Assembly (NCBI RefSeq): GCF_000710465.2
Contig: NZ_JAIZ01000061.1
Span: 1 to 64,000, forward strand
Reading direction: 5' to 3'
DNA: 64,000 nucleotides
From: Kitasatospora sp. MBT63
GTDB lineage: Bacteria; Actinomycetota; Actinomycetes; Streptomycetales; Streptomycetaceae
Made by a program: the position numbers and the translations under genes. Positions within the stretch are counted from its first letter, which is position 1. Every line of letters begins with the position of its first letter. The notes beneath the pieces were generated by a model that did no database searches, was not told where the DNA came from, and was given only the letters and a program-made list of their open reading frames with translations. Positions 37,968 through 62,969 of the stretch are shown piece by piece.

Positions 37968-38558
37968 TCAGGCCGCGGTGGAGCCGAGCCAGCTGAGCCT
38001 GGAGCGGACGTCGATCGCCGCACGGGGCCGGGCCGCCTCGCCGGGGACCGGGGTGCCGACGTACAGGTAGCCGAGCAGCTGCTCGTCGTCTCCGATGCCG
38101 AGGTGCTTGCGAACCTGCGGCGCCTCCGGGCAGGGGCCGCCGAACCAGACTCCGCCCCAGCCGCGCGCGTCCAGGAGCAGCAACAGGGTGATGGCCATCG
38201 CGGACGTCGCTGCCAGCTGCTCCCAGCGCGGGACGGTCGGGTGGTCGCGGGGCTGGAAGACGAGGCCGAGCATCAGCGGTGCGCGCAGGTGCTTGGCGGC
38301 GATCCGCTCGGCCAGGTCGGCGGTGGGCGCGGCCTCGGCGGCGGCTTCGCCGAGCCGGGCCCGGGCGTCGCCACAGATCGCGATCACGCGCCAGGGACGC
38401 AGCTGCCCGTGGTCGGGCGCAGTGGCCGCAGCCGCCAGCAGGTCGAGGAGTTCGGCCTCGCCAGGGGCAGGCTCGGTGAGGCGGATGGTGCTGCGCCGGG
38501 CGCGGATCGCCGCCTCGGTGCCGACCGCGGCGGGCCGGGAGTCGGAGGTGGAGGTCAC
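37968..38558 (-). CDS. Nitroreductase-family protein
   Basis: A 196-residue protein with the nitroreductase pattern: AIRARRSTIRLTEPAP at the N-terminus, LLAAAATAPDHGQLRPWRVI for the FMN-binding part, and GWGGVWFGGP with LGYLYVGTP towards the end. Members are FMN-dependent, often dimeric, reductases or oxidases; in peptide pathways they can dehydrogenate azolines. It starts at GTG overlapping the antiporter stop by four bases and is the last gene of the minus-strand run from the peptide gene. Confidence 0.82.
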   Translation of the reverse strand: MTSTSDSRPAAVGTEAAIRARRSTIRLTEPAPGEAELLDLLAAAATAPDHGQLRPWRVIAICGDARARLGEAAAEAAPTADLAERIAAKHLRAPLMLGLVFQPRDHPTVPRWEQLAATSAMAITLLLLLDARGWGGVWFGGPCPEAPQVRKHLGIGDDEQLLGYLYVGTPVPGEAARPRAAIDVRSRLSWLGSTAA

Positions 38559-39835
38559 CGGGCTGCTCCCGGGGTGCCGGTCTGCGCAGGGGCCGGCACC
38601 TCGGCGGGACCCGGGGTCGTCAGGTCGGGGGCGCCCCGGGTGAGGCGGTCGAGCAGGGGCGCAGTGGCGGCGGTGGTCACGACCGCCATGAGAACCATGA
38701 TCGTGAACAGGCCGGTGGAGATGACGCCGAGCTGGAGGCCGATGCCTAGGACGACGATCTCGGTGATCCCGCGGCAGTTCATCAGGGTGCCCATCAGCGC
38801 CGACCACCGCCAGTCGCAGCCGGCCAGCCGGGCCGCCCCGGCGGCCCCGATCCACTTGCCCGCCACGGCGACGGCCAGGACCAGAGCGGCCCAGCCCCAC
38901 TGGCCGGCCGGGAGGTGGGCGAGGTCGGTGTGCAGGCCGAGGTCGACGAAGAACAGCGGGAGCAGCACCGGGACGAAGACCGCCTGGAGGCGGGCGGCGG
39001 TGCGCTCGACGGCCGGCAGGCCGCGCGGCACCGTCGCGCCGAACAGGAACGCTCCGAAGGCGGGGTGGACGCCGATCCGGTCGGTGGCGCACGCGGCCAG
39101 GAGCAGCCCGGCGACCAGCAGCACCGTCACCAGGTCATCCGAGCTGCGGGCGACGCGCTCCAGCATCCACTTCAGCACCGGGCGGGCCAGGGCCAGGGCT
39201 GCGGTGAGGGCAGCGGTGAACGCGAGGGCGGTGAGTGCATCCAGCGGGGAGCCGGCGGTGGCCAGGGCGGTGACGGCGATGAGCAGGCACCAGGCGAGCG
39301 CGTCGTCGGTGGCCGCGCACGCGAGGGCGAAAGCGCCCAGGCGCGTGGTGGCCAGGCCCCGGTCGGTGAGGATCCGGGCGAGGACGGGGAACGCGGTGAC
39401 GGACAGCGCGGTGGCGACGAACAGGACGAACGGCAGCCGCTGCACGCCGGGCGGGGCCAGGGCCGGGTACATCACGACGGCGAGCCCGGCACCGAGGCCG
39501 AGCGGCAGCAGGATGCTCCCGGCGGCGACGGAGGCCACGGCGCGGCGGGTGGTCCGCAAGGAGCGGAAGTCGAGTTCCAGGCCGACGAGGAAGAGGAACG
39601 CGAGCAGGGCGATGTTGCCGAGCACCGAGGTGTAGGGCAGGACGGTGGCCGGCAGCAGGGCGTGCTGGACACCGGGGGCGACCCAGCCGAGCAGGGAGGG
39701 GCCGAGGAGTATACCGACGGCCATCTCGCCGATGACGGGCGGCTGGCCGAGGCGGCGGGCGGCCCAGCCGCCGGCCTGGCAGGCCAGCACCACGGCCGGG
39801 ACGGCGAGGAGGACGAGCGAGAGCGGAGTGGACAA
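38555..39835 (-). CDS. CPA2-type cation:proton antiporter
   Basis: A 426-residue integral membrane protein with about a dozen hydrophobic segments. Landmarks are LGQPPVIGEMAVGILLGPSL, FLFLVGLELD, and ATDDALAWCLLI, matching Na+/H+ or K+/H+ antiporters of the KefB/NapA type; the ATDD element is the family ND/DD site. It starts at TTG with GGAGA seven bases upstream. It sits at the end of the biosynthetic run and could serve ion balance, product export or resistance. Confidence 0.85.
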   Translation of the reverse strand: MSTPLSLVLLAVPAVVLACQAGGWAARRLGQPPVIGEMAVGILLGPSLLGWVAPGVQHALLPATVLPYTSVLGNIALLAFLFLVGLELDFRSLRTTRRAVASVAAGSILLPLGLGAGLAVVMYPALAPPGVQRLPFVLFVATALSVTAFPVLARILTDRGLATTRLGAFALACAATDDALAWCLLIAVTALATAGSPLDALTALAFTAALTAALALARPVLKWMLERVARSSDDLVTVLLVAGLLLAACATDRIGVHPAFGAFLFGATVPRGLPAVERTAARLQAVFVPVLLPLFFVDLGLHTDLAHLPAGQWGWAALVLAVAVAGKWIGAAGAARLAGCDWRWSALMGTLMNCRGITEIVVLGIGLQLGVISTGLFTIMVLMAVVTTAATAPLLDRLTRGAPDLTTPGPAEVPAPAQTGTPGAAR

Positions 39836-39952: not shown

Positions 39953-41056
39953 TCAGGCCGTGGGGAACAGGGCCTGGTAGAGCGGGTCAGCCCGGAAGGG
40001 GCCGCCGTGGTGGGGGGAGGTCAGCGAGGCGTGGTGCTCCTGGCCGCCGGTGGTGCGCAGCGTGGCGGAGAGGTGGTAGTCCGGGTGGATGCCGTCGTCG
40101 CTGAGTGCTGTTTCGATGGTGAGTTCCAGGACGTCTCCGGGTGCGACCGGCACGGGCTGGTCGAAGAGCGGGAAGTAGATGCTGGCCCAGTTGGTCTTCA
40201 TGCGCAGCGCGTCGAGCGGTTCCTCGTCGGGCAGGCACCAGAGGTTGAGCCAGGTGAGCACGCCGTCGACGTGGCCGGCCCGGGTGATGGCCAGGCGGGT
40301 GGTCGTGCGCTGCTGCGTGCGCAGGTCGCCGTTGAAGTCGAGCACTTCGACGGGCCGGCCCTCGCAGAGGAGGGCGTCGGTGTTGGGGTTCTCGATGCGC
40401 AGCCGGATGTCGAAGGGGCTGCCGTGCCAGTCGAAGATGTGCTGCAGGTACGGCAGGGCCTCCTCGGCGAACGCGACGGGCTGGCCGGGCAGTAGGCCGG
40501 GGAGGTGGACGGGGGCGGCGAGGGTCACCGCGCGGTGCGGCACCACCAGGCCCCCGGGCGCCAGGTGGCGGTCGCGGGCGTCGGTCAGGACGGCTGCCGC
40601 GCCTTCGGCGCCGGCCAGCGAGCCGATGATCTCCGCCACGCAGATGTCGGCCCTGGGTGCGAACTGGAGGGCGGTCGACTCGCCGTGCAGCAGCGTGATC
40701 ATGTCGCGCTCGTCGAGGGTCTCCAGGGTGCCGGCGGCCGTGTGGAAGGCGTCCGCGATGACCTCGACGGCCACCGCGGTGCGGGCTCCGGCCTGCACGC
40801 TCTCGCGGGCCCACAGGAGGTCCTCGCCGGTGCCGATGTCCAGGACGCGCCGGCCCGGGGCGAGCTTGGCCAGCGCCGCGAGGAAGCGCTGGTTGCGCTC
40901 GTGGTCGGTGGTCATGGTCGAGTAGAGGAACCCGTCGTAGATGGGGTACTCGCCGACCGTCGGCCACAGGGCCGCCCTGCCTTCCCGCCCGGGCTCCGGG
41001 TCCACCTCCACGAGCACGGTGTGTCCGTGTACCTCAAGCTCTCGGGTCTTGTGCAT
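39953..41056 (-). CDS. Protein-arginine-methyltransferase-like enzyme
   Basis: A 367-residue class-I PRMT-like enzyme. The entry helix YPIYDGFLYSTMTTDHERNQ, SAM loop VLDIGTGEDLLWA, the two-glutamate loop AEIIGSLAGAEG (two Glu nine apart), and TNWASIYF in the place of the Thr-His-Trp loop are all visible. Known members methylate arginine guanidine nitrogens on proteins; the bacterial relative SznE methylates free arginine in streptozotocin synthesis. Context beside other arginine enzymes and an Arg-repeat peptide suggests methylation of the peptide or of free Arg. AAAGG precedes the ATG. Confidence 0.85.
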   Translation of the reverse strand: MHKTRELEVHGHTVLVEVDPEPGREGRAALWPTVGEYPIYDGFLYSTMTTDHERNQRFLAALAKLAPGRRVLDIGTGEDLLWARESVQAGARTAVAVEVIADAFHTAAGTLETLDERDMITLLHGESTALQFAPRADICVAEIIGSLAGAEGAAAVLTDARDRHLAPGGLVVPHRAVTLAAPVHLPGLLPGQPVAFAEEALPYLQHIFDWHGSPFDIRLRIENPNTDALLCEGRPVEVLDFNGDLRTQQRTTTRLAITRAGHVDGVLTWLNLWCLPDEEPLDALRMKTNWASIYFPLFDQPVPVAPGDVLELTIETALSDDGIHPDYHLSATLRTTGGQEHHASLTSPHHGGPFRADPLYQALFPTA

Positions 41057-41224: not shown

Positions 41225-42097
41225 TCAGGTGCGCAGCAGGGGCAGGGTGGTGCAGCGCAGGGAGCCGGGGATGCGGGTGACCTCGGAGTAGTCGACGGCC
41301 AGGACCTCGAGTCCGAGGGCGGTCAGGGCGGCGGCGATGCGGTCGCTGCCGGCGGCGACGACGACCGTCATGGGGCCGATGGCCAGGACGTTGACCTGGA
41401 CGGCGCGGGCCTCGGCGTCGGTGACGGGGACGAGGTGGTCGAAGTGGGCGTCGAACCAGCGGTTCTGGTCGGCGGTGAAGACCTCGCGGTGGATCAGGGC
41501 GGTGCCGGGCGCGACCACGGCGAGGTGGTCGTCGAGGTGCACGATCCCCTTGACCGCGAAGGGCACCGGGACGACTTCGCGGCCGATGCCGTGCCGGGCA
41601 AGGGCGTCCTGGAGGGCGGCCGCGCCGTCGGGGCTGGTCTCCTCGCTGAGGCCGACGAGGACCCGGGTGGTGTCGGGGAGCAGGACGTCGCCGCCCTCGA
41701 TCGTGCCGCGCGCGAGGTCGACGGGCTGGACGCCGAGGGCGGGGTCGGCGAGGGCGTCGGCCTCGGGCAGGCGGTGCTCGGAGTTGAGGCGGGCGCGGAT
41801 GAGGAGGTGGTCGACGGCGAAGGCGATGTCGCGGGGGTAGTGCTGCACGGAGCAGCCCGGAGCGTCGGGGAGCAGGACCACGTCGGTGCCACGGTCGCGG
41901 AGCAGGGCGATCAGCCGGTCCTGCTGTGCGCGGACGGCGCCCGGGTCGTAGGTGCCCCAGGTGCTGGTGGCCTGCTGGCGGGCGAGGACCGGGTGGACGC
42001 CGGGGCCGTCCAGGGGGCGGGTGAAGTCTCCTGCGTGGCGCATGGCCACCCGCTCGAGGGTGCCGTACTCGGTGGCGACACGGACAGCGTGGTCCAC
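41225..42097 (-). CDS. DDAH/arginine-deiminase-like pentein hydrolase
   Basis: A 290-residue guanidino-modifying enzyme. Motifs in order are YPRDIAF (acidic substrate-binding), GTIEGGDVLL, KGIVHLDDHLAVVAPG (catalytic His), and the C-terminal GSLRCTTLPLL with the nucleophilic Cys, as in dimethylarginine dimethylaminohydrolase and arginine deiminase. It would convert an arginine or methylarginine guanidine to citrulline plus an amine. It starts at GTG, GGAGG five bases upstream. Placed directly before the methyltransferase gene, it fits an arginine-modification route. Confidence 0.85.
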   Translation of the reverse strand: MDHAVRVATEYGTLERVAMRHAGDFTRPLDGPGVHPVLARQQATSTWGTYDPGAVRAQQDRLIALLRDRGTDVVLLPDAPGCSVQHYPRDIAFAVDHLLIRARLNSEHRLPEADALADPALGVQPVDLARGTIEGGDVLLPDTTRVLVGLSEETSPDGAAALQDALARHGIGREVVPVPFAVKGIVHLDDHLAVVAPGTALIHREVFTADQNRWFDAHFDHLVPVTDAEARAVQVNVLAIGPMTVVVAAGSDRIAAALTALGLEVLAVDYSEVTRIPGSLRCTTLPLLRT

Positions 42098-42218: not shown

Positions 42219-42704
42219 TCAGCCGGCCGCGCCGGGCTGGGCGCACTGGGCGAGCCAGGGCGCGGCCTCGGCGACCCGGTTGAGGTTCGTGGGAACCAGG
42301 GCCGGGTCGGTGCCGTAGTCGTCCAGGGCGGTGGCGAGGAAGCCGATCATCGTGTCGTCGCCGTAGTCGCGGGCGGCGAGGTGGGTTCCGCACCTGCCGC
42401 AGAATCCTCGGGCCGTCTTGCCGGGGTAGGTGTCGAACCAGGTCGGCTCACCGCCCTCGCCGGTCCACTCCAGCCCGTCCGCCCGGAACCCGACCCACCA
42501 CTGGAACGGCGCGCCGGAGCGCTTGGCGCAGTGGGCGCAGTTGCACACGTGCGGGTCGTCCACCGGCCCGGTGACGGTGAAGCGGATCCAATCGCACAGG
42601 CAGCCGCCGGAGCGGACCTTGAGGTCGGGGCCGGTTGCGGCAGCGACGATGGCAGTGGCAGTGGCAGTGGCGGTGGCGGTGGCGGTGACGACGGCGTCGG
42701 ACAC
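42219..42704 (-). CDS. GFA / CENP-V-type zinc-binding protein
   Basis: A 161-residue protein with the zinc ligands of the GFA family: GGCLCDWIRF, HVCNCAHCAKRSG and FCGRCGTHLA. The founding member binds formaldehyde-glutathione, though direct enzyme activity is disputed. A role in handling formaldehyde released by oxidative demethylation of methylated arginine would fit this operon but is inference. The N-terminus has a run of alternating Thr-Ala (about residues 8-16) produced by a 6-base tandem repeat. GTG start overlaps the preceding stop by one base. Confidence 0.8.
   Translation of the reverse strand: MSDAVVTATATATATATAIVAAATGPDLKVRSGGCLCDWIRFTVTGPVDDPHVCNCAHCAKRSGAPFQWWVGFRADGLEWTGEGGEPTWFDTYPGKTARGFCGRCGTHLAARDYGDDTMIGFLATALDDYGTDPALVPTNLNRVAEAAPWLAQCAQPGAAG
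42651..42686. repeat. Six-base tandem repeat inside the GFA gene
   Basis: Three copies of GGCAGT (42651-42668) are followed by three of GGCGGT (42669-42686) on the plus strand. They encode an alternating Thr-Ala tract at the protein N-terminus. Six-base units keep the frame, so copy-number changes would alter only linker length. Confidence 0.75.
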
Positions 42705-43567
42705 TAGTTCAGTTCCCTTGCACGGTAGGCCAGTTGGGTCCACCAGTGTGCCATCGCGCAGAAGATCTGGAGGAAGCCCTCCAGGGCCTGCGGCAGGTCG
42801 AGGTGGAAGAGGTCACTCTGACGGACGAACCGGGCCAGGCCCTCGATGTGGGCCTCCTCCACGCTCATGCCGCCGACCTGCGCGGCCTCGTGGCCCTCGT
42901 CGAGGTGGAGCCGGTAGTAGTAGTCCAGGTTCTTCAGCTGCGCGCCGCTGGACTGGATGGTCAGCTCGCCGTACCGGTCGGTGATGGCGCGCAGGATCTC
43001 CGTCTCGGCGACGGCGACGCCCTCGGTGGCGTAGTAGCCGCCGGCGATGAGGCCGGTCATGTGGCTGTTCACCAGGACCTGGTGCTGGAGGACCAGCTTG
43101 GCGGTCTCGTCGGCAGGGACGTGGCCGTTAACGAGCAGGCCGAGGTCGGCGAGCAGCGCGCGGGTGTAGAGGATGTAGTGGGCGGGGACCTTGCCGGGCT
43201 CGCCGCCCTCCTCCAGGAAGTTGCGGTCGAACTCGTGCCCCAGCGCCGGGCAGGAGCCGTAGACCTGGCTGGCCGCCAAGCGCAAGAACTGCGCGTTGTG
43301 CCGGGCGAAGACCGCCAGCTCCGCGATGTACATGCGGGCCTGCGCCGCGGTGAGGGTCGCGGGGTCGACCAGGGAGCGGATCTGCCGGTAGACCGCGTCG
43401 ATCATGGGCCTGAGGTGCTTGTCGACGAGGTCGTCGCCGCTGTCGCGGGTGCCCTGGAGGGTGGCGTGGATGTAGCCGCGGGTCTCCGGGTTCGCGGCCA
43501 GGTACACCTCGACGAGGCTGGTACCGCGCAGGCTGTCGAGCGTGGGCGCGGTGGCGGTGGTGGTCAC
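42704..43567 (-). CDS. Haem-oxygenase-like di-iron oxygenase (HDO)
   Basis: A 287-residue helical protein. The Glu/His pair in AELAVFARHNAQFLRL and the YYYRLHLDEGHEAAQ helix with LH..DEGH match the ligand pattern of HDO-type di-iron oxygenases. Well-studied relatives include the central domain of SznF (N-oxygenation of methylarginine) and other N-oxygenases or desaturases. The GTG start overlaps the JmjC gene stop by four bases, so the two enzymes are made together. In this setting arginine N-oxygenation is a reasonable guess. Confidence 0.8.
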   Translation of the reverse strand: MTTTATAPTLDSLRGTSLVEVYLAANPETRGYIHATLQGTRDSGDDLVDKHLRPMIDAVYRQIRSLVDPATLTAAQARMYIAELAVFARHNAQFLRLAASQVYGSCPALGHEFDRNFLEEGGEPGKVPAHYILYTRALLADLGLLVNGHVPADETAKLVLQHQVLVNSHMTGLIAGGYYATEGVAVAETEILRAITDRYGELTIQSSGAQLKNLDYYYRLHLDEGHEAAQVGGMSVEEAHIEGLARFVRQSDLFHLDLPQALEGFLQIFCAMAHWWTQLAYRARELN

Positions 43568-44847
43568 GCGGTCTCCTCGGGCGTGGTGGTGAGGCTCAGG
43601 CCGCCGGTGGCGCCGAGCGTGCGGATCGCGGCGAGCACCTGCGGGTCGTCGGGCAGGGTGGTGGGGCCGGCGTTGAGGCGCTCGACCAGGTCGGGGGTGA
43701 GGACGGCGGGGTCGGCCGCCGTCTCGCAGCCGCGCAGGAACGCCTGCTCGCCGGTGACGATCAGCCGGTAGGGGGCGCGGACAGCGACGCTCGTGCCGGG
43801 CCCGAGCGCGACGGCGGCGAACGCCGCGGCGACCTCGTCCCGGGCGAGGTCGAGTTCGGTCTGCTGCCAGCCGCCGTTGCTCAGGACGGTGTACCACCGC
43901 TGGTGGGCGTGCTGGGCGGCGGCGGCCGTCGCCCGCTCGGCGGCGGCGGTGAACGCGTCGGCGGCCACCGCGCCCAGGCGGCGGGCGAGCTCGCCCGGGC
44001 CGCCGGCCAGCGGCTGCATCGGGGAAGGCCGGCCGGCGTCGGTGTCGGGCTCGCTGGCCAGGAGGTTCTCCAGCAGGTCGGGCGCGATCCAGCCGCGGGC
44101 GACCGCGGCGTCGGGGAAGGTGTAGAGGGGGATGGCGACGGAGATGCTGAACTCGTCCTGGCGGCCGACGTGGAAGACGCGCTCGGGCAGGAACAGGGCG
44201 TCGCCGGGCTCCAGGGCGAAGTGCTGGCCGTGTTCCAGCAGCCACGTGTAGTCGCCGTACAGCGGCTCGCTGCCGCCGGTGAGCTTGCGGTACTCCTCGG
44301 CCGGCCAGCAGTAGAAGTCCTTGGTGCCGGGGCCCTGGTGGGTGAGGACCGCGTTCTCGTAGCCCTCGTGCACGCCGAACGCGGTCCCGCTGTAGTTGCC
44401 GACGAAGGCGACCAGCTCGGCGCCGCCGGCCGGGACGCCCCAGCCGTCGATCAGCGCGCCGACGAACTCGCCCAGGCCCGCGGCCAGCGGCTCGGAGACG
44501 CTCTCCAGGGTGTTGAGGACCAGGCTGAACCGGTCGGCGCCGATCTGCTCCTGCATCCACGCGACGAAGTCGCCCTGCGGCCAGGCGTCGGCGGCCAGGA
44601 CCTTGTCCACCAGGTCGGGGCGGTGCTCCTCGCCCACGTACACCCGGGCGTTCGCGGTGATCTCCACTCCGGCGGCGTGGGCCCGCCGGATCGCGGCGAA
44701 GCCCTCGAGCACGGCGGCGGGGTTCGCCGCCGACGGGGGGATGATGCCCTTGAACAGGTACGGGCGCGTCATGCCGTCGGTCCTGGCGGGCAGGGTGTCG
44801 GTCCAGAACTCGCGGGGCGGGGGCCACTGTCCGGGGGTGCTGCTCAT
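43564..44847 (-). CDS. JmjC/cupin-type oxygenase-like protein with an HxG variant
   Basis: A 427-residue protein. The double-stranded barrel is visible as FVGNYSGTAFGVHEGYEN, then THQGPGTKDFYCWP, and the closing strand LEPGDALFLPERVFHVG with the distal His. In ribosomal-arginine hydroxylases of this fold the first motif is His-x-Asp; here the corresponding position is Gly (HEG). Loss of the carboxylate is known in iron/2-oxoglutarate halogenases, though a degenerate or differently liganded site is equally possible. The C-terminal 180 residues (LARDEVAAAFAAVALGP) are helical. AAGGAG lies ahead of the ATG. Confidence 0.75.
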   Translation of the reverse strand: MSSTPGQWPPPREFWTDTLPARTDGMTRPYLFKGIIPPSAANPAAVLEGFAAIRRAHAAGVEITANARVYVGEEHRPDLVDKVLAADAWPQGDFVAWMQEQIGADRFSLVLNTLESVSEPLAAGLGEFVGALIDGWGVPAGGAELVAFVGNYSGTAFGVHEGYENAVLTHQGPGTKDFYCWPAEEYRKLTGGSEPLYGDYTWLLEHGQHFALEPGDALFLPERVFHVGRQDEFSISVAIPLYTFPDAAVARGWIAPDLLENLLASEPDTDAGRPSPMQPLAGGPGELARRLGAVAADAFTAAAERATAAAAQHAHQRWYTVLSNGGWQQTELDLARDEVAAAFAAVALGPGTSVAVRAPYRLIVTGEQAFLRGCETAADPAVLTPDLVERLNAGPTTLPDDPQVLAAIRTLGATGGLSLTTTPEETA

Positions 44848-44923: not shown

Positions 44924-46063
44924 CTACGCGACGAGGTAGTCCTCGGGGCCGCCGTCGCGGACGGTGTCGAGGGTGAAGCAGTGGTGCCCGCCGCCGAACA
45001 GGCGCCGGTGGCGGTGCCGGACCGGGACGACCGTGAAGCCGCGCTGCTCCAGCACCTTGATCAGCTCCGGGTAGAGGGAGTTGACGACGACCGTGCTCTC
45101 GTCGATCGACAGGACGTTGATGTCGATGTACCGGGACGCGGTGGGAACGACGAACCCGAACCCGTCGTAGTCGGGCTCGGGCACCGAGCTGGGCGGCGGG
45201 TAGATCGCCTCCCAGGTCCGCATCGCCTCCGGCAGGAGGTCGAGGTACTGCGGGTCGCGCAGCAGCATCAGGCCCGGGCGCAGGGGGACGACGATGGAGT
45301 CGACGTGGTTGTCGGCGATCCCGGGCAGCCGGTGCCAGCGCAGCTGGGGGAAGGTGCGGGCCAGCCACCGGAAGGCGAGCTCGTGATTGTGGTTGGCGAC
45401 GTTGACGAGGACGTCGCGGCCCAGGCGGACGCACTGCGCGCCGTCGAAGACCATCTCCAGGCCCAGGCCGTCGATGGGCAGGGCGTGCTCGCCGGCCATC
45501 GCCGCGGTGACGTCGATGCCGTTGCGCTCGAAGTAGGCGGTGTCCAGGGAGTGGGCGGCGAGCGCGGGGCGCGGCATGGCCAGCCAGTTCGAGCCCTGCT
45601 CGAAGTAGCGGGTGAAGAGCGCCTTGAGGTGGTCGTTCTCGAAGATGCGGCTGCGGATGTGCGGCGCGGTCTCCACGATCGTCTCCCCGAGGACGACCGC
45701 GTTGTCGCGGACGTTCAGCGGCGGCGTCGCACCGCTGCTCCACCACGGGGAGGAGACCTGGACGTCCTTGCCGGGGGCCGAGGGGCGCAGCACGCGCACC
45801 CCGCAGCCGGCCAGGGCGTCCGCGAAGCCGGTGACGTCCTCGATCAGCTCGTCGACGATCTGCTGCGGGATCGTCAGCTGCCGCTGGCCGTCGGGCAGGT
45901 GCGGGGCCACGTTCTCGTAGTAGAACAGGCGCCAGCTGCTGTCGGCGTCGTGCGCGGTGTAGTGGTCGGCGCGGCCGACGACGACCTCGCGCAGCCGGGT
46001 GAAGTCGTCGTAGCTGTGCGCACCTTGGGTGGGCGGGTCGAGCTGGGACTGGGGCTTGGTCAT
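44924..46063 (-). CDS. Arginine:amine amidinotransferase (GATM family)
   Basis: A 379-residue amidinotransferase. The catalytic triad positions are conserved: Asp in MVFDGAQCVRLGRDVLV, His in DNHVDSIVVPLRPG, and Cys in GGGHHCFTLDTVR. Family members move the amidino group from arginine to glycine, inosamine or lysine. Acceptor here is unknown; the Lys residues of the repeats or a small amine are candidates. A GAGGAGG precedes the ATG. It lies between the desaturase-like and JmjC genes. Confidence 0.88.
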   Translation of the reverse strand: MTKPQSQLDPPTQGAHSYDDFTRLREVVVGRADHYTAHDADSSWRLFYYENVAPHLPDGQRQLTIPQQIVDELIEDVTGFADALAGCGVRVLRPSAPGKDVQVSSPWWSSGATPPLNVRDNAVVLGETIVETAPHIRSRIFENDHLKALFTRYFEQGSNWLAMPRPALAAHSLDTAYFERNGIDVTAAMAGEHALPIDGLGLEMVFDGAQCVRLGRDVLVNVANHNHELAFRWLARTFPQLRWHRLPGIADNHVDSIVVPLRPGLMLLRDPQYLDLLPEAMRTWEAIYPPPSSVPEPDYDGFGFVVPTASRYIDINVLSIDESTVVVNSLYPELIKVLEQRGFTVVPVRHRHRRLFGGGHHCFTLDTVRDGGPEDYLVA

Positions 46064-46177: not shown

Positions 46178-47254
46178 TCAGGCGGCCGTGCGTTCGGCGG
46201 CCGGGGCCTGGAGCGGTGCGGGCCGGGCGGTGAGACGGGCGATGACGTCCTCGATCACGCACGGCACGTCGGGGGTGGAGCGGCGGCGGAAGAAGTAGCC
46301 GGAGCACCACGGCACCTCGCTCCAGCGCTCCACGCGCTCGGCCAGGAGGGCGGTGGCCTCGGGCAGACGACGCCAGGGGATCTTGGGGCACCAGTGGTGC
46401 ACGGGGTGGTGCATGTCGTCGAGGTGACCGCCGAGCAGGTGCCGGGTGAGCCAGTGCGAGGACCAGCCGCGGGTCTGCAGCAGCACATCGTCGTCCTCGA
46501 TCAGGCCGGCGTGGTTGCCGAGGTCGGTGATCCAGGTGACCGTCGGCCGCACGAGCACCAGCGGGACCAGCCAGTACAGCACCAGGTCGCCGAGGACGCC
46601 GAAGGACCAGCACACGGTGGCGACGGCGGCCCACGCCGCCGCGCGGGCGGCCGGCGCCCAACGGCTCTCCCGCGGACCGCGGGTGACCAGCGTCCGCAGC
46701 GCCGACGTCGGCAGCCGCCACAGCGCGGCCCCGCCGATGACCCGCACCACGAACGCGGTCCTGGTCATCGGGGCGCGGACGGTGTGCAGACCTCCGGCCC
46801 GGTAGGACTGGAACATCGGATCGGCTCCGCTGCCGAGCTGCGCGTGGTGCACGCCGTGGGTGGCCCGGTAGGGCCGCAGCCCCTCACCGAGCAGCCCGGT
46901 CAGCAGGTACCCCACCAGGCGGTTGCCGCGCGCGGTGGCCAGCAGCTTGGCGTGGACGCACTCATGTGCCAGGTTCGAGAGATGCCGCTGGCGCACCCCG
47001 ATGTACAGCACGGCGAGCAGCGGGCCGACGACGTGCCCCACCAGGGAGCCGGCGAACCCCGCCGCGACGATCGCGCCGACGTCCAGCGCGACGTCCCGCA
47101 GGCCGACGCTCGGGGCGCCGCACAGGCTCTCCAGCTCGCCGATCAGCTCCGGCCCCAGCGCCTGCCGGACCGGACCGGACGCGCCGGTCGAGTGCCGGGT
47201 GCGCCTCGGTGTCTTCTCGCGCCGGGGTATCGACCACCGGCCGGGCCTGCCCAT
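46178..47254 (-). CDS. Membrane fatty-acid-desaturase-like di-iron protein
   Basis: A 358-residue membrane protein. The three His boxes are HECVHAK, HGVHH and HHPVHH, separated by hydrophobic segments (VALDVGAIVAAGFAGSLVGH; VATVCWSFGVLGDLVLYWLV). Such enzymes desaturate or hydroxylate lipids or other substrates; some act on peptides or amino acids. I prefer ATG 47254 because AAGGAGAG lies just upstream; an earlier ATG at 47272 has no such site. It is the first gene after the peptide gene, across a hairpin. Confidence 0.85.
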   Translation of the reverse strand: MGRPGRWSIPRREKTPRRTRHSTGASGPVRQALGPELIGELESLCGAPSVGLRDVALDVGAIVAAGFAGSLVGHVVGPLLAVLYIGVRQRHLSNLAHECVHAKLLATARGNRLVGYLLTGLLGEGLRPYRATHGVHHAQLGSGADPMFQSYRAGGLHTVRAPMTRTAFVVRVIGGAALWRLPTSALRTLVTRGPRESRWAPAARAAAWAAVATVCWSFGVLGDLVLYWLVPLVLVRPTVTWITDLGNHAGLIEDDDVLLQTRGWSSHWLTRHLLGGHLDDMHHPVHHWCPKIPWRRLPEATALLAERVERWSEVPWCSGYFFRRRSTPDVPCVIEDVIARLTARPAPLQAPAAERTAA

Positions 47255-47306
47255 CTGCTCTCCTTCGAACATCGCTGAGGGCTGGGTGTCGGCTTTCCGT
47301 GCACCG

Positions 47307-47370: not shown

Positions 47371-47505
47371 TCAGGCGGCGGCGCCCGGCCGCATGCCGAG
47401 CTTGATGCCCGGGCGCATGCCGAGCTTCACGGAGGCGCCGGGGCGCATGCCGAGCTTCACGGTGCCGTTGCCCGGGCGCATGCCGAACTTCAGGGTCTGG
47501 TCCAT
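47371..47505 (-). CDS. Repetitive peptide precursor: four K-[L/F]-G-M-R-P-G units
   Basis: A 44-residue peptide. After MDQTL come KFGMRPG (6-12), KLGMRPG (17-23), KLGMRPG (27-33) and KLGMRPG (35-41), joined by NGTV, ASV and I and ending AAA. Each unit is preceded by a hydrophobic residue (L, V, V, I). There is almost no leader. The ATG has AGAGGAG upstream; an in-frame TTG at 47625 would add a 40-residue leader but has no ribosome site. The only Arg residues are in the repeats, and the following operon is rich in arginine-modifying enzymes, so this is probably the substrate. It is too short and repetitive for a folded enzyme. Confidence 0.85.
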   Translation of the reverse strand: MDQTLKFGMRPGNGTVKLGMRPGASVKLGMRPGIKLGMRPGAAA

Positions 47506-47734: not shown

Positions 47735-47943
47735 CACCATGCCGATGACCTGGGCAACCGCCTGCCGGTGCGGCCGGAATCGCCGACACCGTCCACAGGC
47801 CGGAGCCCTGGGTCGATGCGCGCGGTCTTCTGTCCCGCGGCAGCACGCGACTACCTTGAGGCGCTCCAGGGGATCCGCTCCGCCCGGATCGCCACACCAT
47901 GGTCAACTCCCCTTACCTGCAACCCTGTTGAGAGGAAGTGCGC

Positions 47944-48837
47944 ATGTCCGCGCTGCCCGACCCCATTCGTCTCAAGGCCGACGTGCTGCACGGCCTGCGG
48001 GCCCTGCTGCACGAGGAGCGCTTCACCGAGGTGGTCACCCCCGTCGCCCGCCGGGCCGACCTCGGGCCCGGCCGCCGTGTCCCCGCCGCCCTCCACGAGG
48101 GCCGGCACCTGCGCGCGATGATCGGCCCGGCGCTGCGCGTCAACGTCCGCGCCGACCTCCCGCGGGTGTACGAGATCGGCCCCTGCTTCCGCCCCGAGGC
48201 CCCCGATGCCCTCCACGCCTCCGAGTTCACGATGCTCGACCTGTACGCCGCCGGCCTGACCTTCGAGGGCCTGATCGGCCTCGCCTGGCGCCTGGTCGGC
48301 CCGCACCTGACCGCCTACACCCCCGACCGCCTCTCGATCACCGACCACGTCCGCGACGCATTCGGTATCGACCTGCGCACCGAGCCCCTCGGTGACCTGC
48401 ACACACGTATGGCCGCCCGGATCGGCGCCGATGCGGGCGAGCCGTTCCGCGACGTCCTCGGCCTCTACATCGCCCGCGAACTCGAGGCCGGTACCGCGGG
48501 CCGCGCGGTGTTTCTCACCGACTACCCGACCGGCGGCGACGAGCCCTGCGCCCGCCTGGCCCCCGGTACCACCGCCGTCCTGGAGCGGTTCGAGCTGATC
48601 GTCGACGGCGTCGAGCTCGTCCACGGCTACACCGACGAGACCGACACCGCGGCCTTCACCGACCGCGCCAAGGCCGTCGGCCTCTACGACGCCGAGCAGC
48701 AGCTCGCCCTGGACGCCGTCGAAGCCGGAGCCGTCCCCGCGGACACCGCCGGCCTCGGCATCGGCATCGAGCGCCTGTGCGCCGTCTCCGCAGGGCTGCG
48801 CGACATCACCCCCTTCCTCCAGTCCCCCCAGTTCTGA
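47944..48837 (+). CDS. Truncated lysyl-tRNA-synthetase-like (EpmA/PoxA-type) ligase
   Basis: A 297-residue class-II synthetase core without the N-terminal tRNA anticodon-binding domain. Motif 2 is VYEIGPCFRPEAPDALHASE followed by FTMLDLYAA; FLTDYPTGG is the usual substrate-loop segment; motif 3 is GLGIGIERL. EpmA/PoxA proteins of this size transfer lysine-type amino acids to a protein side chain instead of to tRNA. Here it may aminoacylate the repeat peptide or an amine. The ATG at 47944 has AGAGGA seven bases upstream. It is divergent from the peptide gene. Confidence 0.85.
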   Translation: MSALPDPIRLKADVLHGLRALLHEERFTEVVTPVARRADLGPGRRVPAALHEGRHLRAMIGPALRVNVRADLPRVYEIGPCFRPEAPDALHASEFTMLDLYAAGLTFEGLIGLAWRLVGPHLTAYTPDRLSITDHVRDAFGIDLRTEPLGDLHTRMAARIGADAGEPFRDVLGLYIARELEAGTAGRAVFLTDYPTGGDEPCARLAPGTTAVLERFELIVDGVELVHGYTDETDTAAFTDRAKAVGLYDAEQQLALDAVEAGAVPADTAGLGIGIERLCAVSAGLRDITPFLQSPQF

Positions 48838-48870: not shown

Positions 48871-49791
48871 ATGGACCTCGCGATCACCCCGCTGCCCGGC
48901 GGATTCGGCGCCCGCGTCGAGACCGACCTCGCCCGCACGGCCGGCCCCGCCGCAGCGCGCACGCTCACCGATCTCCTGCACCAGCACCGGGTGCTGGTGC
49001 TGCCCGGCCAGCACCTCAACCACGCCGACCTGCTCGCCGCGGCCGCCCTGTTCGGCGACGTCGACACCGCCACCGACCGCCGGTACACCGTCCCCGGGTT
49101 CCCCGGCCTGACCGTCGTCTCCAACATCCACGACCAGGACGGCCAGCCGATCGGCATCTACGACGGCGACGACGAGGAGGAGTGGCACGCCGACAACTCC
49201 TTCAAGCCGCAGCTCACCACCGCCACCCTGCTCTACTCGGTCATCACCCCCGACGAGGGCGGCGAGACCCGCTTCGCCGACGCCACCCGCGCCTACGCGA
49301 ACCTTCCGACCGACCTCCGGGAGCGGGTCGACGCTCTGAGCGCCGTCCACTCCGCCCAGCACCTGGGCACCCTGCAGGCCGACGCCGCCGGCGGCCGCTC
49401 CTCCACCCAGGCCGGCACCCTCGCGCGCCTGCCCGAGGTCATCCACCCCCTCGCCCCCATCCACCCCGTCACCGGCACCCGCACCCTGCTGCTCGGCTCC
49501 ATGGTGATCCCCCGCATCGAGGGGCTGCCCGACGCCGAAGGCCAGGCGCTGCTCGACGACCTCCTGACCCGCGCCACCGGCCCCGACTACCTCTACACCC
49601 ACCGCTGGAGCCAGGGAGACCTGGTCATCTGGGACAACCGCGCGGTGCTGCACACCGCCTCCCCCTGCGACAGCTCCCGCCACCAGCGGCTGCTGGTCCG
49701 CGCCGCCGTCCGCCAGGCGACACGCCGCCCAGGTCCTCCCGACGGGGGAATCCCCACCGAGTCGCCCACCACCGCGCCGACCCACCACTAG
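48871..49791 (+). CDS. TauD/TfdA-family Fe(II)/2-oxoglutarate dioxygenase
   Basis: A 306-residue oxygenase. The iron site is WHADNSF (His-x-Asp) with the distal His in RAVLHTASPCDSSRHQR and the 2-oxoglutarate-binding Arg shortly after. GETRFADATRAYANLP is family-typical. It hydroxylates an unactivated carbon; Lys or Arg side chains would fit the context. It follows the ligase by 33 bases with GGAGG before the ATG, so both form one transcription unit. Confidence 0.88.
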   Translation: MDLAITPLPGGFGARVETDLARTAGPAAARTLTDLLHQHRVLVLPGQHLNHADLLAAAALFGDVDTATDRRYTVPGFPGLTVVSNIHDQDGQPIGIYDGDDEEEWHADNSFKPQLTTATLLYSVITPDEGGETRFADATRAYANLPTDLRERVDALSAVHSAQHLGTLQADAAGGRSSTQAGTLARLPEVIHPLAPIHPVTGTRTLLLGSMVIPRIEGLPDAEGQALLDDLLTRATGPDYLYTHRWSQGDLVIWDNRAVLHTASPCDSSRHQRLLVRAAVRQATRRPGPPDGGIPTESPTTAPTHH

Positions 49792-49800: not shown

Positions 49801-50937
49801 GTGAGTTCCCAAGTTCCCCTAAAGGACAAGGCCTTGAGCCCAGAGCGGATCGCCCGGATCGGGCGCGAGATGCAAACGGCCTGCCCCGCCTTCGACGCCG
49901 CCTCCTTCACCACCCAGGTCACCGCCGACCTTCCCCGCCTGGAACTCAAGGCCCGCATCACCCGCACCGCACAGGGCCTGCACCAGCATCTGCCCCTCAC
50001 CGGGCCGCCCGCCCTCGACACCGTGCTGCGCTCCCTCCCGGCCACTCCGGAGGCCGCCGGCGCCGAGGTCGACTTCGGGCTCTACACCTACGCCCCGCAC
50101 TCCGCGTACGTCGCCGCCCACCACCTCCACCCCGAGACGCTCGACCAGGCCCTCGCCGCGTTCGCCACCATCACCCCGTACTTCTCCGCAGAGGACGCCG
50201 TCCGCACCGCCCTCACCTCCTTCCCCGAGCAGACGCTCGCCGCCGCCGCCGGGTGGGCCACCGCGTCCGACCACCGGGTACGGCGCCTGGCCAGCGAGGC
50301 CACCCGACCGCACCTGCCCTGGTCCGTGAGCGCCGGCCTGCCCGTCGACGCTGCCCTCCCGCTGCTCGACCTGCTGTACGCCGACACCAGCCGGTTCGTG
50401 ACCACCTCGGTCGCCAACCACCTGCGCGACATCTCCCGCACCCTGCCCGACCTCGTCCTCGACACCCTGACCCGGTGGCGCACCGAGGGACGCGCCAAGC
50501 CCGCCGAGCTCGCCTTCATCACCCGCGAAGCACTGCAACTGCGACTCAAGGCCGGCTGGGCACCCGCCTACACCGCCCTCGGCTACGACCCGCAGGCCGC
50601 CGTCAGCGTCGGCCCGATCCGCCTCGACCGCACCGACTACCAGCTCGGCGACAACCTCTCCTTCGAGGCAGACCTCACCGCGCCCACCGACACCCCGGTG
50701 CACGTGATGTACGTCCTGACCCGCACCGGCCCCGACGCCCGGACGAGGGAGAAGGTCTCCCACCTCACCCGAGCCACCGTCAAGGCCGGTGCACCACTGC
50801 GCCTGGCCAAGGCCCATGCCCTGCCGTCCACCGGCAGAGCCGCCCTCACACCGGGCAGCTACCACCTCTCACTCCAGGTCAACGGCCGCCGCCACCCCCC
50901 GGCGTTGCTCCGCATCACCAGCGACCGTTCCAACTGA
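49801..50937 (+). CDS. HEAT-repeat DNA-alkylation-repair-like protein (AlkD type)
   Basis: A 378-residue protein made of helical HEAT-like repeats: WATASDHRVRRLASEATRPH, FVTTSVANHLRDISRTLPDL and VLDTLTRWRTEGR match the AlkC/AlkD group, which excise alkylated bases. The C-terminal third (VGPIRLDRTDYQLGDNLSFE) is beta-rich. It starts nine bases after the TauD gene, so may be part of that unit; repair of alkylation could protect a producer of an alkylating product. Confidence 0.75.
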   Translation: MSSQVPLKDKALSPERIARIGREMQTACPAFDAASFTTQVTADLPRLELKARITRTAQGLHQHLPLTGPPALDTVLRSLPATPEAAGAEVDFGLYTYAPHSAYVAAHHLHPETLDQALAAFATITPYFSAEDAVRTALTSFPEQTLAAAAGWATASDHRVRRLASEATRPHLPWSVSAGLPVDAALPLLDLLYADTSRFVTTSVANHLRDISRTLPDLVLDTLTRWRTEGRAKPAELAFITREALQLRLKAGWAPAYTALGYDPQAAVSVGPIRLDRTDYQLGDNLSFEADLTAPTDTPVHVMYVLTRTGPDARTREKVSHLTRATVKAGAPLRLAKAHALPSTGRAALTPGSYHLSLQVNGRRHPPALLRITSDRSN

Positions 50938-56900: not shown

Positions 56901-56936
56901 CCTGTCTGCCCGTAGAACCCATTCGTGAGGACACCG

Positions 56937-57611
56937 ATGGCCCGCAGCACCACCAAGCAGCGCACGGATCCGGCGACCGACTCGGCGCCGGCTTCCGTGC
57001 CGATCACCGAGTCTGCGCCCCGGCGTGGCCGCCGCCCGGCCCTGGTCGGGATCGGCGTCGCCGTTGCCGTCGTCGGCGCGCTCGGCGGCTGGAGTCTGGT
57101 GGACCAGGCGCGCGACCGCGTCCAGGTCCTCGCCGTCGCCCGCCCGGTCCCGGCCGGGCAGGCGATCACGGCCGCCGACCTGGTGGCCGCGGAGGTCGCC
57201 CCCGATCCGGCGCTGCGCCCGGTCGCGGTCAGCCGCAGCAAGGAGATCGTCGGCAAGACCGCGGCCACCGACCTGGTCCCGGGCTCGCTGATCACCACCC
57301 AGTCCGTGCGCGAGGGCAAGCCGGTGACGACCGGCAGGGACGTCGTCGGCATCCTCACCAAGCCGGGGCAGATGCCCCAGGGCCGGCTGCAGATCGGTGA
57401 CGCGGTCATCCTGGTCGCCACTCCCCGTCAGGACGACACCAAGGCGGACGCGCAGCCCGCGACCATCAACGCGGTCGTGGCCCGGGTCGGCGATGCCGAC
57501 GGCAACGGCGTCATCGTGGTGGACGTGGCGGTCAGCCCGGTCGACTCGCCCTCGGTGGCCGCGTGGACCGCCTCCGGGCGCATCGGGATCGTCCTCAAGG
57601 CCAAGTCATGA
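56937..57611 (+). CDS. cpaB: CpaB/RcpC-type SAF-domain pilus protein
   Basis: A 224-residue protein with one N-terminal membrane segment (ALVGIGVAVAVVGALGGWSL) and a SAF domain (VLAVARPVPAGQAITAADLV) typical of CpaB, which acts in Flp-pilus assembly in the periplasm or cell envelope. ATG 56937 has GAGG six bases upstream. It overlaps the TadZ-like gene by four bases. Confidence 0.85.
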   Translation: MARSTTKQRTDPATDSAPASVPITESAPRRGRRPALVGIGVAVAVVGALGGWSLVDQARDRVQVLAVARPVPAGQAITAADLVAAEVAPDPALRPVAVSRSKEIVGKTAATDLVPGSLITTQSVREGKPVTTGRDVVGILTKPGQMPQGRLQIGDAVILVATPRQDDTKADAQPATINAVVARVGDADGNGVIVVDVAVSPVDSPSVAAWTASGRIGIVLKAKS

Positions 57612-58438
57612 TGGTCTCCCTCGTGTCCGCGAAGTCGAGCGGCGTCACCTGCTCGGCCCTGGCGCTGGCGCTCGCCTCGCCGCGGCCGACCGCGCTGGCC
57701 GAGTGCGATCCGGCCGGCGGCACCATCCGCACCGGTTACCTCCAAGGCGGCGGCCCGACGGCCGCTGTCGGGCTCCACCGGCTGGCCACCGCCTCGCGTG
57801 CAGGAACGATTCAGCACGAGTTTCCGGAGCACTGGGTGCGCCTGGACGACTTGGGCCACCGGATGTTCCTGCCGGGCCTGACCGACCCGTCCCAGGCGTC
57901 CGGCCTCGCCGGGGCCTGGGGCGACATGGGCCGCCTGCTGCGGGTGTGGGAGAACCCGGGCGGCCACGACGTCATCATCGACGCCGGCCGCGTCCAGGTG
58001 TCCTCCAAGACCACCCTTGACTCCGTGTCCTACCCGGCCGCGTTGCTGCGCCAGTCGGACCTGGTGCTGCTCGTGGTCCGCAACACTTTGCCGTCCGTCC
58101 TGTCGGCCGCGCCCGTAGTGCAGATCCTGCGCGCGGACCTGACCGAGCACGGCACCGGCGGTGAGGCTCTCGGTGTCCTGATGATCGAGGAGGGCGGCCT
58201 GTCCAGCAGCGAGATCGGCGCCCGCCTCGGCGTGCCCGTCCTGGCGGGACTGCCCTGGGACGAGGACATGGCACAGAACCTGACGACTGGCAAGGAGCTG
58301 CGCCGGGGCAAGCCGGCCCGCACCAAGTTGATGCGGCATGCGCGTTCCGCCTTCGGCCCGCTCACCGAGGCCGCCACCCGGCGGCAGATCCAGCTGCGTC
58401 GTCCCGGCGCGCTGACCGGCGCTGCGGAGGTGGCGTGA
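57608..58438 (+). CDS. TadZ/CpaE-like ParA-type ATPase with altered P-loop
   Basis: A 276-residue MinD/ParA-fold protein. The deviant Walker A position reads SAKSSGVTCSALALALA, with the second Lys of the KGGxGKT pattern missing, so nucleotide binding is doubtful. It should help localise the pilus machine. Later features are LAECDPAGGTIRTGYL and LVLLVVRNTLPSV. It is coupled at both ends, with ATG inside the CpaB stop. Confidence 0.82.
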   Translation: MMVSLVSAKSSGVTCSALALALASPRPTALAECDPAGGTIRTGYLQGGGPTAAVGLHRLATASRAGTIQHEFPEHWVRLDDLGHRMFLPGLTDPSQASGLAGAWGDMGRLLRVWENPGGHDVIIDAGRVQVSSKTTLDSVSYPAALLRQSDLVLLVVRNTLPSVLSAAPVVQILRADLTEHGTGGEALGVLMIEEGGLSSSEIGARLGVPVLAGLPWDEDMAQNLTTGKELRRGKPARTKLMRHARSAFGPLTEAATRRQIQLRRPGALTGAAEVA

Positions 58439-59991
58439 TGGTGGAGAAGACGCTCGGCCCCGCTACGCCCGTCAGCCCGGCCCATGCCCTCGCCGGGGCG
58501 TTCGCCGACGCACTCGAGCAGCGGCCCGCCGCGGTGCGCGTGGTTCCCCAGGTCGTGACCGGCCCGGTGGCCGCAGGTGCGGTGTCCCCGACTGCCGTCC
58601 CCGCGCCCGCCGGCCCCGCCGGTGTGCTGCCGGTTCCGTTCTCGGAGATCAGCGCGCTGCACACCCGGGTCTCGACCGAGCTCGCCGAGGAGACCGCCTC
58701 CCGCCCCGGGCTGTCGGAGGCAGACCGGCGACAGCTCGGCCAGACCATCGTCACCCGCGTGGTCAGCGTCTGGGCGACCGACTACGCCGCCACCCGGCGG
58801 CCTCTCACCCGCGCCGATGAGCAGGCCGTGCAGGCGGCCGTCTATAGCGAGCTCTTCGAAGCGGGCCGGCTCCAAGCGTTGTTGGACGACCCGGAGATCG
58901 AGAACATCATCCTGCGCGGGCACAAGACCGTCCGCGTCGACTACTACAACCGCCCGAGTCAGCTCGTCGCGCCGGTCGCCGACAGCAACGAGGGCGTCCT
59001 CGCCCTGGTCAACAAGTTGGCGCGGCAGGCCGGCCACTCCGAGCGCTCTCTCACCAACCCGAGCCCGATGCTGAACCTGGCCATGCCCGACGGGTCCCGT
59101 CTGGCCGCGACGGGCTTCATCAGCGCGGAGCCGGAGGTGGTGATCCGCCGTCACCGTGTCCAGCACCAGACCCTGGACGACCTGGTCGGCTGGGGGACCA
59201 TCGACACCACCCTCGCCCGGTTCTTGCGCGCCCTGGTCAGGGCGCGCAAGAACATCCTGGTGGTGGGAAGCCAGGGTGTCGGCAAGACGAGCCTGCTGCG
59301 CGCGATGGCGCGTGAGATCCCGCGGCACGAGCGGGTCGGCACGCTGGAGACCGACTACGAGCTGTGGCTCCACAAGGACGACGACGGCCCCGAGGTCGTC
59401 GCGTTCCAGTCCCGGGAGTCCAACGGCGAGCGCGGTCCGGACGGCAAGGCGTCGGGAGCCATCACGCTTCTCGACATCTTCCCGCAGGCCCTGCGGATGT
59501 CGCTGAGGCGGGTGATCGTCGGTGAGGTCCGCTCCGCCGAGGTCCTTCCGATGCTGCACGCCATGAACGAGGGCGAGGGAGGGTCGATGGCGACCCTTCA
59601 CGCCCGCACGGCACGCAAGGCGATCGAGCGCCTGGTCACCCTGTGCCTGGAAGCCGGCACCGGTATGACCCCGGACCTGGCGTACCGCCTCACCGAGGGC
59701 GTGGATTTCATCGTCTACGTCCGTCTGGTCGACGAGACCGAGATCGGTGGCCGCCGCCACCGTTTCGTCTCCGACGTCCTGGAGATCAACGGTCTCGGCG
59801 AGGGGGGCCGGCCCGCCACCAGCGCGATCTTCGGCCCACGGGAGGCAGGCGGGCGGCGTGAGCCGCGAGCGGTGCCGCTGCTGCCGCCGCAGTGCCTTGA
59901 CGACCTCGTCCGGGCCGGATTCGACCGCAGCCTCCTGCGTCAGGAGTGGGGCGCGTGGGCCGAGCCGATGAGGACGGTGACGCAGCTGTGA
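58438..59991 (+). CDS. tadA: TadA/CpaF secretion ATPase
   Basis: A 517-residue hexameric ATPase that powers pilus extension. Walker A is GSQGVGKTSLLRAMAREI (near residue 280), the aspartate-box region TLETDYELWL follows, and Walker B/His box is VIVGEVRSAEVLPMLHAMNE then GGSMATLHA. ATG 58438 fits GGAGGT six bases upstream. It overlaps the upstream stop by one base. Confidence 0.93.
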   Translation: MVEKTLGPATPVSPAHALAGAFADALEQRPAAVRVVPQVVTGPVAAGAVSPTAVPAPAGPAGVLPVPFSEISALHTRVSTELAEETASRPGLSEADRRQLGQTIVTRVVSVWATDYAATRRPLTRADEQAVQAAVYSELFEAGRLQALLDDPEIENIILRGHKTVRVDYYNRPSQLVAPVADSNEGVLALVNKLARQAGHSERSLTNPSPMLNLAMPDGSRLAATGFISAEPEVVIRRHRVQHQTLDDLVGWGTIDTTLARFLRALVRARKNILVVGSQGVGKTSLLRAMAREIPRHERVGTLETDYELWLHKDDDGPEVVAFQSRESNGERGPDGKASGAITLLDIFPQALRMSLRRVIVGEVRSAEVLPMLHAMNEGEGGSMATLHARTARKAIERLVTLCLEAGTGMTPDLAYRLTEGVDFIVYVRLVDETEIGGRRHRFVSDVLEINGLGEGGRPATSAIFGPREAGGRREPRAVPLLPPQCLDDLVRAGFDRSLLRQEWGAWAEPMRTVTQL

Positions 59992-61801: not shown

Positions 61802-61846
61802 CCCCAGCCCGGCAGTACCCATCAACTCCCAAGGGGGAAAGCACAC

Positions 61847-62053
61847 ATGCAGGACATCAAGGTTCTCACTCTCGCCATCCAGGCCAAGTTCGAGCAGATG
61901 CGGGCCGTCGCCCAGAAGGGCGGCTCGGACCGGGGCGCCATATCCCTGGAGCTGGCCGTCCTGATCGCCTGCCTCCTGGGCCTGGGCATCCTCCTGGCCG
62001 GCGTCGCGCTGAGCAAGGCCAACGAGAAGAACGCCGTCATCACCGGCCAGTAG
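61847..62053 (+). CDS. Small Flp-type pilin-like protein
   Basis: A 68-residue peptide. A short amphipathic N-terminus leads to DRGAISLELAVLIACLLGLG, a hydrophobic pilin helix with a Gly/Ala-Ile-Ser-Leu-Glu start similar to the pseudopilins that follow. Its size and place right after TadC suggest the major pilin. The AAGGGGGAAAG upstream is a strong ribosome site. Confidence 0.82.
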   Translation: MQDIKVLTLAIQAKFEQMRAVAQKGGSDRGAISLELAVLIACLLGLGILLAGVALSKANEKNAVITGQ

Positions 62054-62095
62054 GCCGCCTCGCACCCGATCCGTACCATCGCCAAGGAGCCGTCG

Positions 62096-62967: not shown

Positions 62968-62969
62968 CC

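Follow-up and report, generated by a model that had tools for sequence, protein, structure and literature searches.

A tandem-repeat peptide encoded beside an HDO-fold enzyme and a RoxA-like cupin suggests a leaderless RiPP-type pathway in Kitasatospora and other bacteria

We describe a gene cluster of Kitasatospora sp. MBT63 (contig NZ_JAIZ01000061.1, positions 1-64,000, here called the window) in which a short peptide of tandem basic repeats is encoded at the head of an operon for an HDO-fold enzyme and a RoxA/YcfD-like JmjC cupin. Open reading frames (ORFs) that contain three or more [KQ]-x-G-x-[RK]-P units lie in the cluster at 34 of 35 distinct HDO loci, and in our judgement the peptide is quite probably the substrate or scaffold of the cupin/HDO pair. 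We favour, with somewhat less assurance, a leaderless pathway of the type that yields ribosomally synthesized and post-translationally modified peptides (RiPPs), or one in which the peptide is a scaffold, where the two enzymes would oxidise a conserved basic side chain. This proposal draws on gene content, the conservation of the repeats, model folds and sequence motifs, from which we infer that the enzymes act on the repeats.

Results

The repeat-peptide gene (47371-47505, minus strand) is the first gene of the HDO/cupin operon and encodes 44 amino acids, MDQTLKFGMRPGNGTVKLGMRPGASVKLGMRPGIKLGMRPGAAA, with four K-x-G-M-R-P-G repeats and no obvious leader. Across the loci the peptides hold 4 to 10 copies of a unit that reads [L]-K-x-G-x-R-P-[D/G]. 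While the ORFs were chosen by the pattern given above, which peptides wholly without it would escape, the repeats were counted by a looser rule that gave 195 sequence windows, two of which were out of register and were dropped. G, R and P are constant in all 193 in-register repeats and K is present in 191, the two exceptions being replacements by Gln, both in the AA1529 peptide (loci L028/L034); position 4 is M, V, L, Q, E, T, I or A, and P is mostly followed by D or G. The Arg of the repeats is encoded by CGC (102), CGT (50) and CGG (41), and Gly and Pro each use four codons; since the codons vary and the G, R and P do not, selection acts at the level of the protein. A chance origin was rejected, as 33 of the 13,278 ORFs of at least 25 amino acids at the 35 loci have at least three K.G.RP motifs, one each in 33 loci, with two further ORFs having exactly two; of the other two loci, L034 has the two repeats in which Gln replaces Lys and L048 has no such ORF. 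An encoded precursor adjoining modifying enzymes, which is one of the marks of a RiPP, was found at all but one of the distinct loci, and this supports the suggestion, made in a first-pass annotation of this DNA, of a basic residue carried on a peptide. Searched as text, the repeat motifs were not found in the open-access literature.

Relatives of the HDO gene turned up on 12 plasmid records (10 from Streptomyces and 2 from Nostoc), in 6 of the 394 genomes of a family sample (the window genome included), in 3 of the 394 genomes of a class sample and at 22 loci in one scan of genome contigs. Ten of the 12 plasmid regions were compared, H2 and H8 being left out, and after duplicates L026, L028 and L050 had been dropped there were 35 distinct loci, the window included, from Streptomycetaceae, Amycolatopsis, Nocardia, Xenorhabdus, Nostoc and one metagenome-assembled genome (MAG) of the Acidobacteriota. 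A later-found locus outside these 35, L065, has like genes and a repeat peptide. Two plasmid loci have the cupin without an HDO match: at L053 the gene order is kept up to the cupin and the genes further downstream are absent, while at L054 the cupin is all that remains of the cluster. This distribution suggests that genes for the peptide, for the two oxygen-using enzymes and for a few partners move as a group from one bacterial lineage to another, unrelated one.

The HDO ORF (42704-43567) and the cupin ORF (43564-44847), both on the minus strand, adjoin and overlap by 4 bases, as had been noted in the first-pass annotation; the overlap, GTGA, joins the TGA stop of the cupin to the GTG start of the HDO. 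Both ORFs can be taken as real because the cupin ORF has a third-position GC content (GC3) of 0.99 and because paired homologues adjoin in other phyla. In a Pfam search DUF3865 was the sole clear match of the HDO protein, and by sequence it matches the CADD-like structure 3b5o. Its AlphaFold2 (AF2) model, with a predicted local distance difference test score (pLDDT) of 90.5, gave a VIA Z of 23.3 to 3b5p (root-mean-square deviation (rmsd) 3.0, 222 aligned), 19.4 to HrmI 9n1x (rmsd 3.4, 227 aligned) and 14.4 to SznF 6vzy (rmsd 3.1, 219 aligned), as well as 18.0 to CADD, 17.5 to BesC, 16.7 to FlcD and 16.5 to RohS, so that the HDO fold assigned earlier from the letters is borne out by structure prediction. 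BesC was the lone characterised HDO in a profile search, where the match was weak (E 0.21).

Six residues of the HDO, E120, H130, E182, H221, E237 and H240, are invariant in 26/26 sequences, and the E120-x9-H130 spacing equals that of SznF E215/H225 given in PMC11705231. These six are the probable metal ligands, a grading that reflects the AF2 model, in which the third metal-binding helix is broken and H221 ... E237-x2-H240 replaces the usual H-x3-D-x2-H. The window HDO thus has its fold in common with HrmI, CADD, BesC and other HDOs, and differs from them in its altered third-helix motif and its linkage to a repeat peptide. In the open-access literature DUF3865 was met with only in an apparently unrelated mention.

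For the cupin, RoxA/YcfD was the top fold match of an AF2 model with pLDDT 89.2 (Foldseek E 3.3e-13; VIA Z 19.4, rmsd 5.4, 336 aligned), and NO66 (15.4) and JMJD5 (14.3) were the next VIA matches. The sequence-profile match to RoxA was weak (probability 39.6), yet the same His positions come out of MAFFT and of hhalign, with RoxA H125 and H187 aligned to cupin H160 and H226, and RoxA D127 to Gly162. The motif G-x-H-x-G-x-E ... LPxxV[FY]HVG occurs in 34/34 family cupins, where H160-x-G162, E164, K176 and H226 are invariant, whereas HxD is kept in E. coli RoxA and in two Pantoea homologues. The full-length fold and both His residues are therefore common to the cupin and RoxA/YcfD, which is annotated in E. 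coli as L16-arginine 3-hydroxylase, but Asp127 has become Gly162 in all 34 cupins examined, and the cupin sits in a gene cluster that is often plasmid-borne in contrast to the housekeeping setting of RoxA. It is possible that the cupin is a facial-diad oxygenase, a non-redox protein or a dead site.

The presence of the entire RoxA/YcfD architecture explains the size of the cupin, which is, as the first-pass annotation had remarked, much larger than the SznF cupin. The SznF-like chemistry also proposed there found no support: the best fold match is RoxA/YcfD, and the metal motif, compared by residues and not by direct alignment to SznF, is HxG...H in 34/34 cupins rather than the three His (H407, H409 and H448) listed for SznF in PMC11705231. 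The SznF cupin was not among the Foldseek/VIA matches listed for the model, which proves nothing by itself.

The remaining genes of the minus-strand operon follow the peptide gene. Between it and the cupin lie a gene for an FA_desaturase-type hydroxylase (46178-47272), whose top NCBIfam match is GntB, the guanitoxin L-arginine gamma-hydroxylase, under the model cut-off, and one for an amidinotransferase of the StrB1/GATM type (44924-46063; 1bwd, E 1.2e-40), with GGGHHC and HVDS motifs. After the HDO come genes for a GFA-family zinc protein (42219-42743; PF04828, E 4e-16), whose real start is probably near 42704, and, by family match, a DDAH/arginine deiminase-like amidine hydrolase (41225-42097). 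Next is the PRMT-like methyltransferase (39953-41056; 1g6q, E 1.8e-10), on the same strand as the HDO and separated from it by these two genes, and the operon closes with a Na+/H+ exchanger-family protein that is a possible exporter (38555-39835) and a nitroreductase-family protein (37968-38558), both again by family match. A divergent operon on the plus strand encodes a class II LysRS/EpmA-like amino acid ligase without an anticodon domain (47938-48837), a TauD/TfdA-type dioxygenase (48871-49791; family match) and the AlkC alkylpurine DNA glycosylase (49801-50937). What we take to be the side-chain Glu positions of LysRS correspond to D101 and D233 in the ligase, which hints at a bulkier basic substrate and is too weak to use.

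Partners were counted by tblastn (E 1e-4, at least half of the query), with contig ends and insertions depressing some counts. The cupin and the ligase are each near the HDO in 34/35 loci and the GFA protein in 31/35, while the desaturase-type hydroxylase and the amidinotransferase, at 30/35 each, are present at all 30 actinobacterial loci and at no others; TauD follows with 28/35, the DDAH-like gene with 24/35, the antiporter with 19/35 and the nitroreductase with 17/35. The PRMT-like gene is near 11/35 loci, a count that is too low in that at L022 and L024 the gene lies past an inserted element, and it is on 7/10 of the Streptomyces HDO plasmids when whole plasmids are counted. The PRMT was accordingly rejected as a core enzyme, and on this gene content it is accessory. 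The smallest clusters, those of Xenorhabdus, consist of the peptide, cupin, HDO, GFA protein and ligase together with a LysE-type translocator that carries a fused solute-binding domain, and this suggests the export of a small basic product.

The AlkC assignment is essentially full-length (phmmer 5vi0, E 3.5e-38, residues 6-366 of 378), so that the DNA alkylation-repair gene seen in the first-pass annotation is indeed present and belongs to AlkC, not to the AlkD family named there. It is the sole copy in the window genome, is present at 26/35 loci and is presumed to serve self-protection. In the operon of Nostoc carneum, Tag (3-methyladenine glycosylase I) stands instead of AlkC. That two distinct alkyladenine glycosylases occupy this setting points to a small alkylating product; that this product alkylates DNA we regard as an evenly balanced proposition.

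Discussion

In the leaderless pathway that we favour, the cupin and the HDO would work in succession on the conserved basic side chain that each repeat offers, and would recognise the repeat itself. The target would most likely be Arg, with Lys second. In actinobacteria the accessory enzymes (GntB-like, amidinotransferase, DDAH-like and sometimes PRMT-like) would then elaborate the guanidine, and the processed unit would be released and would leave the cell as a small basic product, probably a DNA alkylator from which AlkC, or Tag in the one Nostoc operon, would protect the producer. Arg is favoured because the nearest fold of the cupin hydroxylates protein arginine and because the actinobacterial accessory enzymes are of guanidine families, and we name it tentatively as the modified residue, at slightly short of an even chance. 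Lys, in turn, is favoured by the HDO neighbours HrmI and BesC and by the EpmA-like ligase.

Several observations weigh against this proposal or its parts. The Acidobacteriota MAG locus L048 has an HDO and a ligase with no repeat peptide and no cupin within 17 kb, and no constant protease or RiPP recognition protein was noticed among the clusters. Lys is nearly as conserved as Arg in the repeats (191/193 against 193/193), and among the characterised HDOs closest in fold, HrmI and BesC take lysine or chlorolysine as substrate (PMC13108848). The RoxA-type HxD...H iron triad is missing from all 34 cluster cupins, and with the Asp absent ordinary hydroxylation by the cupin appears uncertain. As for self-protection, an AlkC-like protein occurs in 62/394 genomes of the family sample and so also outside any cluster, and in genome G177 an 80%-identical AlkC stands alone. 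There are three candidate reactions, namely oxidation of the Arg/Lys side chain with or without halogenation, formation of a PyrN-like N-N bond and BesC-like cleavage; of all the reactions considered, nitrosation of the SznF kind has the least support.

An SznF pathway split over several genes, as the first-pass annotation had it, would have the PRMT methylate Arg, whether free or in the peptide, the HDO N-hydroxylate it twice and the cupin rearrange the result to an N-nitrosourea. The HDO, cupin and PRMT-like genes are all in the window operon, the E-x9-H spacing is shared, and AlkC suits an alkylating nitrosourea. Against this, the cupin is RoxA-like with HxG...H in place of three His, the PRMT was not found in the Nocardia, Xenorhabdus, Nostoc and Amycolatopsis stretches compared nor on 3/10 Streptomyces HDO plasmids, and the HDO is nearer to HrmI (Z 19.4), CADD and BesC than to SznF (Z 14.4); moreover, SznF fuses its HDO and cupin, which are separate genes here, and the window also encodes a LysRS-like ligase and a repeat peptide of ribosomal origin. 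We consider this very improbable. Alternatively, the cluster might be a hydrazine synthase assembled from other parts, in which the HDO N-hydroxylates Lys or Arg, the LysRS-like ligase esterifies it and the cupin makes the N-N bond, as in PyrN/Spb40. PMC8664883 gives a trio of lysine N-hydroxylase, MetRS-like domain and Zn cupin for PyrN/RHS1, so that an N-oxygenase, a tRNA-synthetase-like ligase and a cupin are common to both systems, the ligase is at 34/35 loci, and HrmI, the closest characterised N-oxygenase in fold, makes N6-hydroxylysine en route to a nitro group (PMC13108848). However, the PyrN/RHS1 cupins are small and carry D/H-x-H-x3-E...H (PMC8664883). Here H160-x3-E164 and H226 are invariant, but the RoxA alignment sets H160 one position earlier, at the first position, with Gly at the second; E164 is a putative replacement for the catalytic Glu. 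The ligase is also of the class II LysRS type, the cupin is RoxA-like and no flavin lysine hydroxylase was noticed in the window operon; we hold this alternative to be rather unlikely.

It might also be supposed that a Bes-like cleavage takes place on the peptide, the HxG cupin halogenating Lys or functionalising it by another radical route, the HDO cleaving the chain with release of formaldehyde and the GFA protein handling the latter. Loss of the carboxylate, as HxG or HxA, is a mark of halogenases dependent on iron and 2-oxoglutarate (Fe/2OG), and HxG is present in 34/34 cluster cupins as against HxD in RoxA and the two Pantoea homologues; yet we know of no JmjC-fold halogenase, and facial-diad hydroxylation or a dead site is possible as well. 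BesC, which alone among characterised HDOs came up in the profile search, if with a weak match, releases formaldehyde according to PMC13108848, and GFA is at 31/35 loci, but the family name is no proof of formaldehyde chemistry, and two repeats of the L028/L034 peptide have Gln in place of Lys. We deem this quite unlikely. Another alternative is that the peptide is a regulator, a metal carrier or a recognition platform, and that the substrate of the enzymes is an amino acid, either free or ligase-tethered. The presence of HDO and ligase without a peptide at L048, the absence of a visible leader, and the fact that several of the accessory families act on free arginine all point this way, whereas tandem copies of an unvarying motif, encoded next to the enzymes in several phyla, resemble substrate units, and the fold neighbours of the cupin act on residues within proteins; this, too, seems unlikely to us. 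The boldest form of the favoured leaderless pathway, a new class of tandem-repeat RiPP in which a JmjC enzyme with an HxG centre of halogenase type, which would be the first for this fold, and the HDO turn the Arg or Lys of each unit into a DNA-alkylating warhead, several of them being cut from one peptide, while AlkC or Tag guards the DNA, we likewise regard as quite improbable.

Among known RiPPs the nearest comparison is with the biphenomycin enzyme BipG and with PbsQ, JmjC hydroxylases of Orn (formed from Arg) in a RiPP precursor, as reported in PMC12707348 and PMC12257519. In both cases a JmjC cupin lies beside a small Arg-containing precursor, but the window cluster has no MNIO or B12-radical SAM enzyme that we could see and has tandem repeats, an HDO and no leader. 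Each part of the cluster comes from a known superfamily, but the open-access literature searched had no description of the combination or of a RoxA-like cupin with HxG. If the proposal is true, HDO chemistry would reach into a new RiPP class, with an HDO serving as a core enzyme for a gene-encoded repeat peptide, and the RoxA-like HxG cupin would indicate that strict selection can continue on a JmjC fold from which the iron-binding acid has gone. AlkC and Tag would predict a small alkylating product, and the minimal clusters have about six genes. It would also give a function to look for in DUF3865, the solved member of which, 3b5o/3b5p, was deposited as of unknown function.

Further observations

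Outside the cluster, Tad/Flp-pilus-like genes (ATPase, membrane and pilin-like proteins, judged by eye) lie at 56925-63404 of the window, on the same 67-kb contig. Together with the 10 Streptomyces plasmid HDO matches they suggest, without proving it, that the window comes from a plasmid.

The GFA gene ends after 41 codons in plasmid loci L022 (12819-12944) and L024 (12819-12944) and in L039 (10819-10941). In L022 and L024 integrase genes follow the truncated gene at the same place, and L024 has a GFA-family piece about 11.8 kb further on; an integrative element may have its attachment site within the GFA gene. The PRMT-like gene of L016 (16575-17288) matches in two pieces, is annotated only as a hypothetical protein and is probably broken. 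Cluster-type AlkC copies, 80-83% identical, occur without the rest of the cluster at L061 (13367, genome G177) and at L062 (13141, genome G036), the latter split over two frames, and are possibly orphan immunity genes or relics.

On the Nostoc carneum plasmid (L018) an adenylation-carrier-reductase protein is encoded in the operon at 14346-17351, with Tag after it, and this cluster may release or make an aldehyde. The protein, which resembles a nonribosomal peptide synthetase, was considered as a substitute for the ligase and dropped, in view of its domain order and because comparison of its A-domain region with gramicidin synthetase gave no obvious counterpart of the Asp that binds an alpha-amino group. 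The L048 genes (6322-10397) encode the HDO, the ligase, a PhyH dioxygenase and a pyridoxal phosphate (PLP) decarboxylase-like protein, and may form a related pathway that does without a peptide; in the HDO tree L048 groups with Xenorhabdus (100/100) on a long branch, so that its placement is to be taken with care. Finally, a plasmid of Pantoea ananatis (L055, 4215-8923) carries an arginase-family gene, two RoxA-like cupins that keep HxD, and GNAT and MFS genes, adjoined by a gene for a 57-amino-acid peptide ending in GGGGLGRDRRDTGH, which is possibly another Arg-modifying RiPP cluster.

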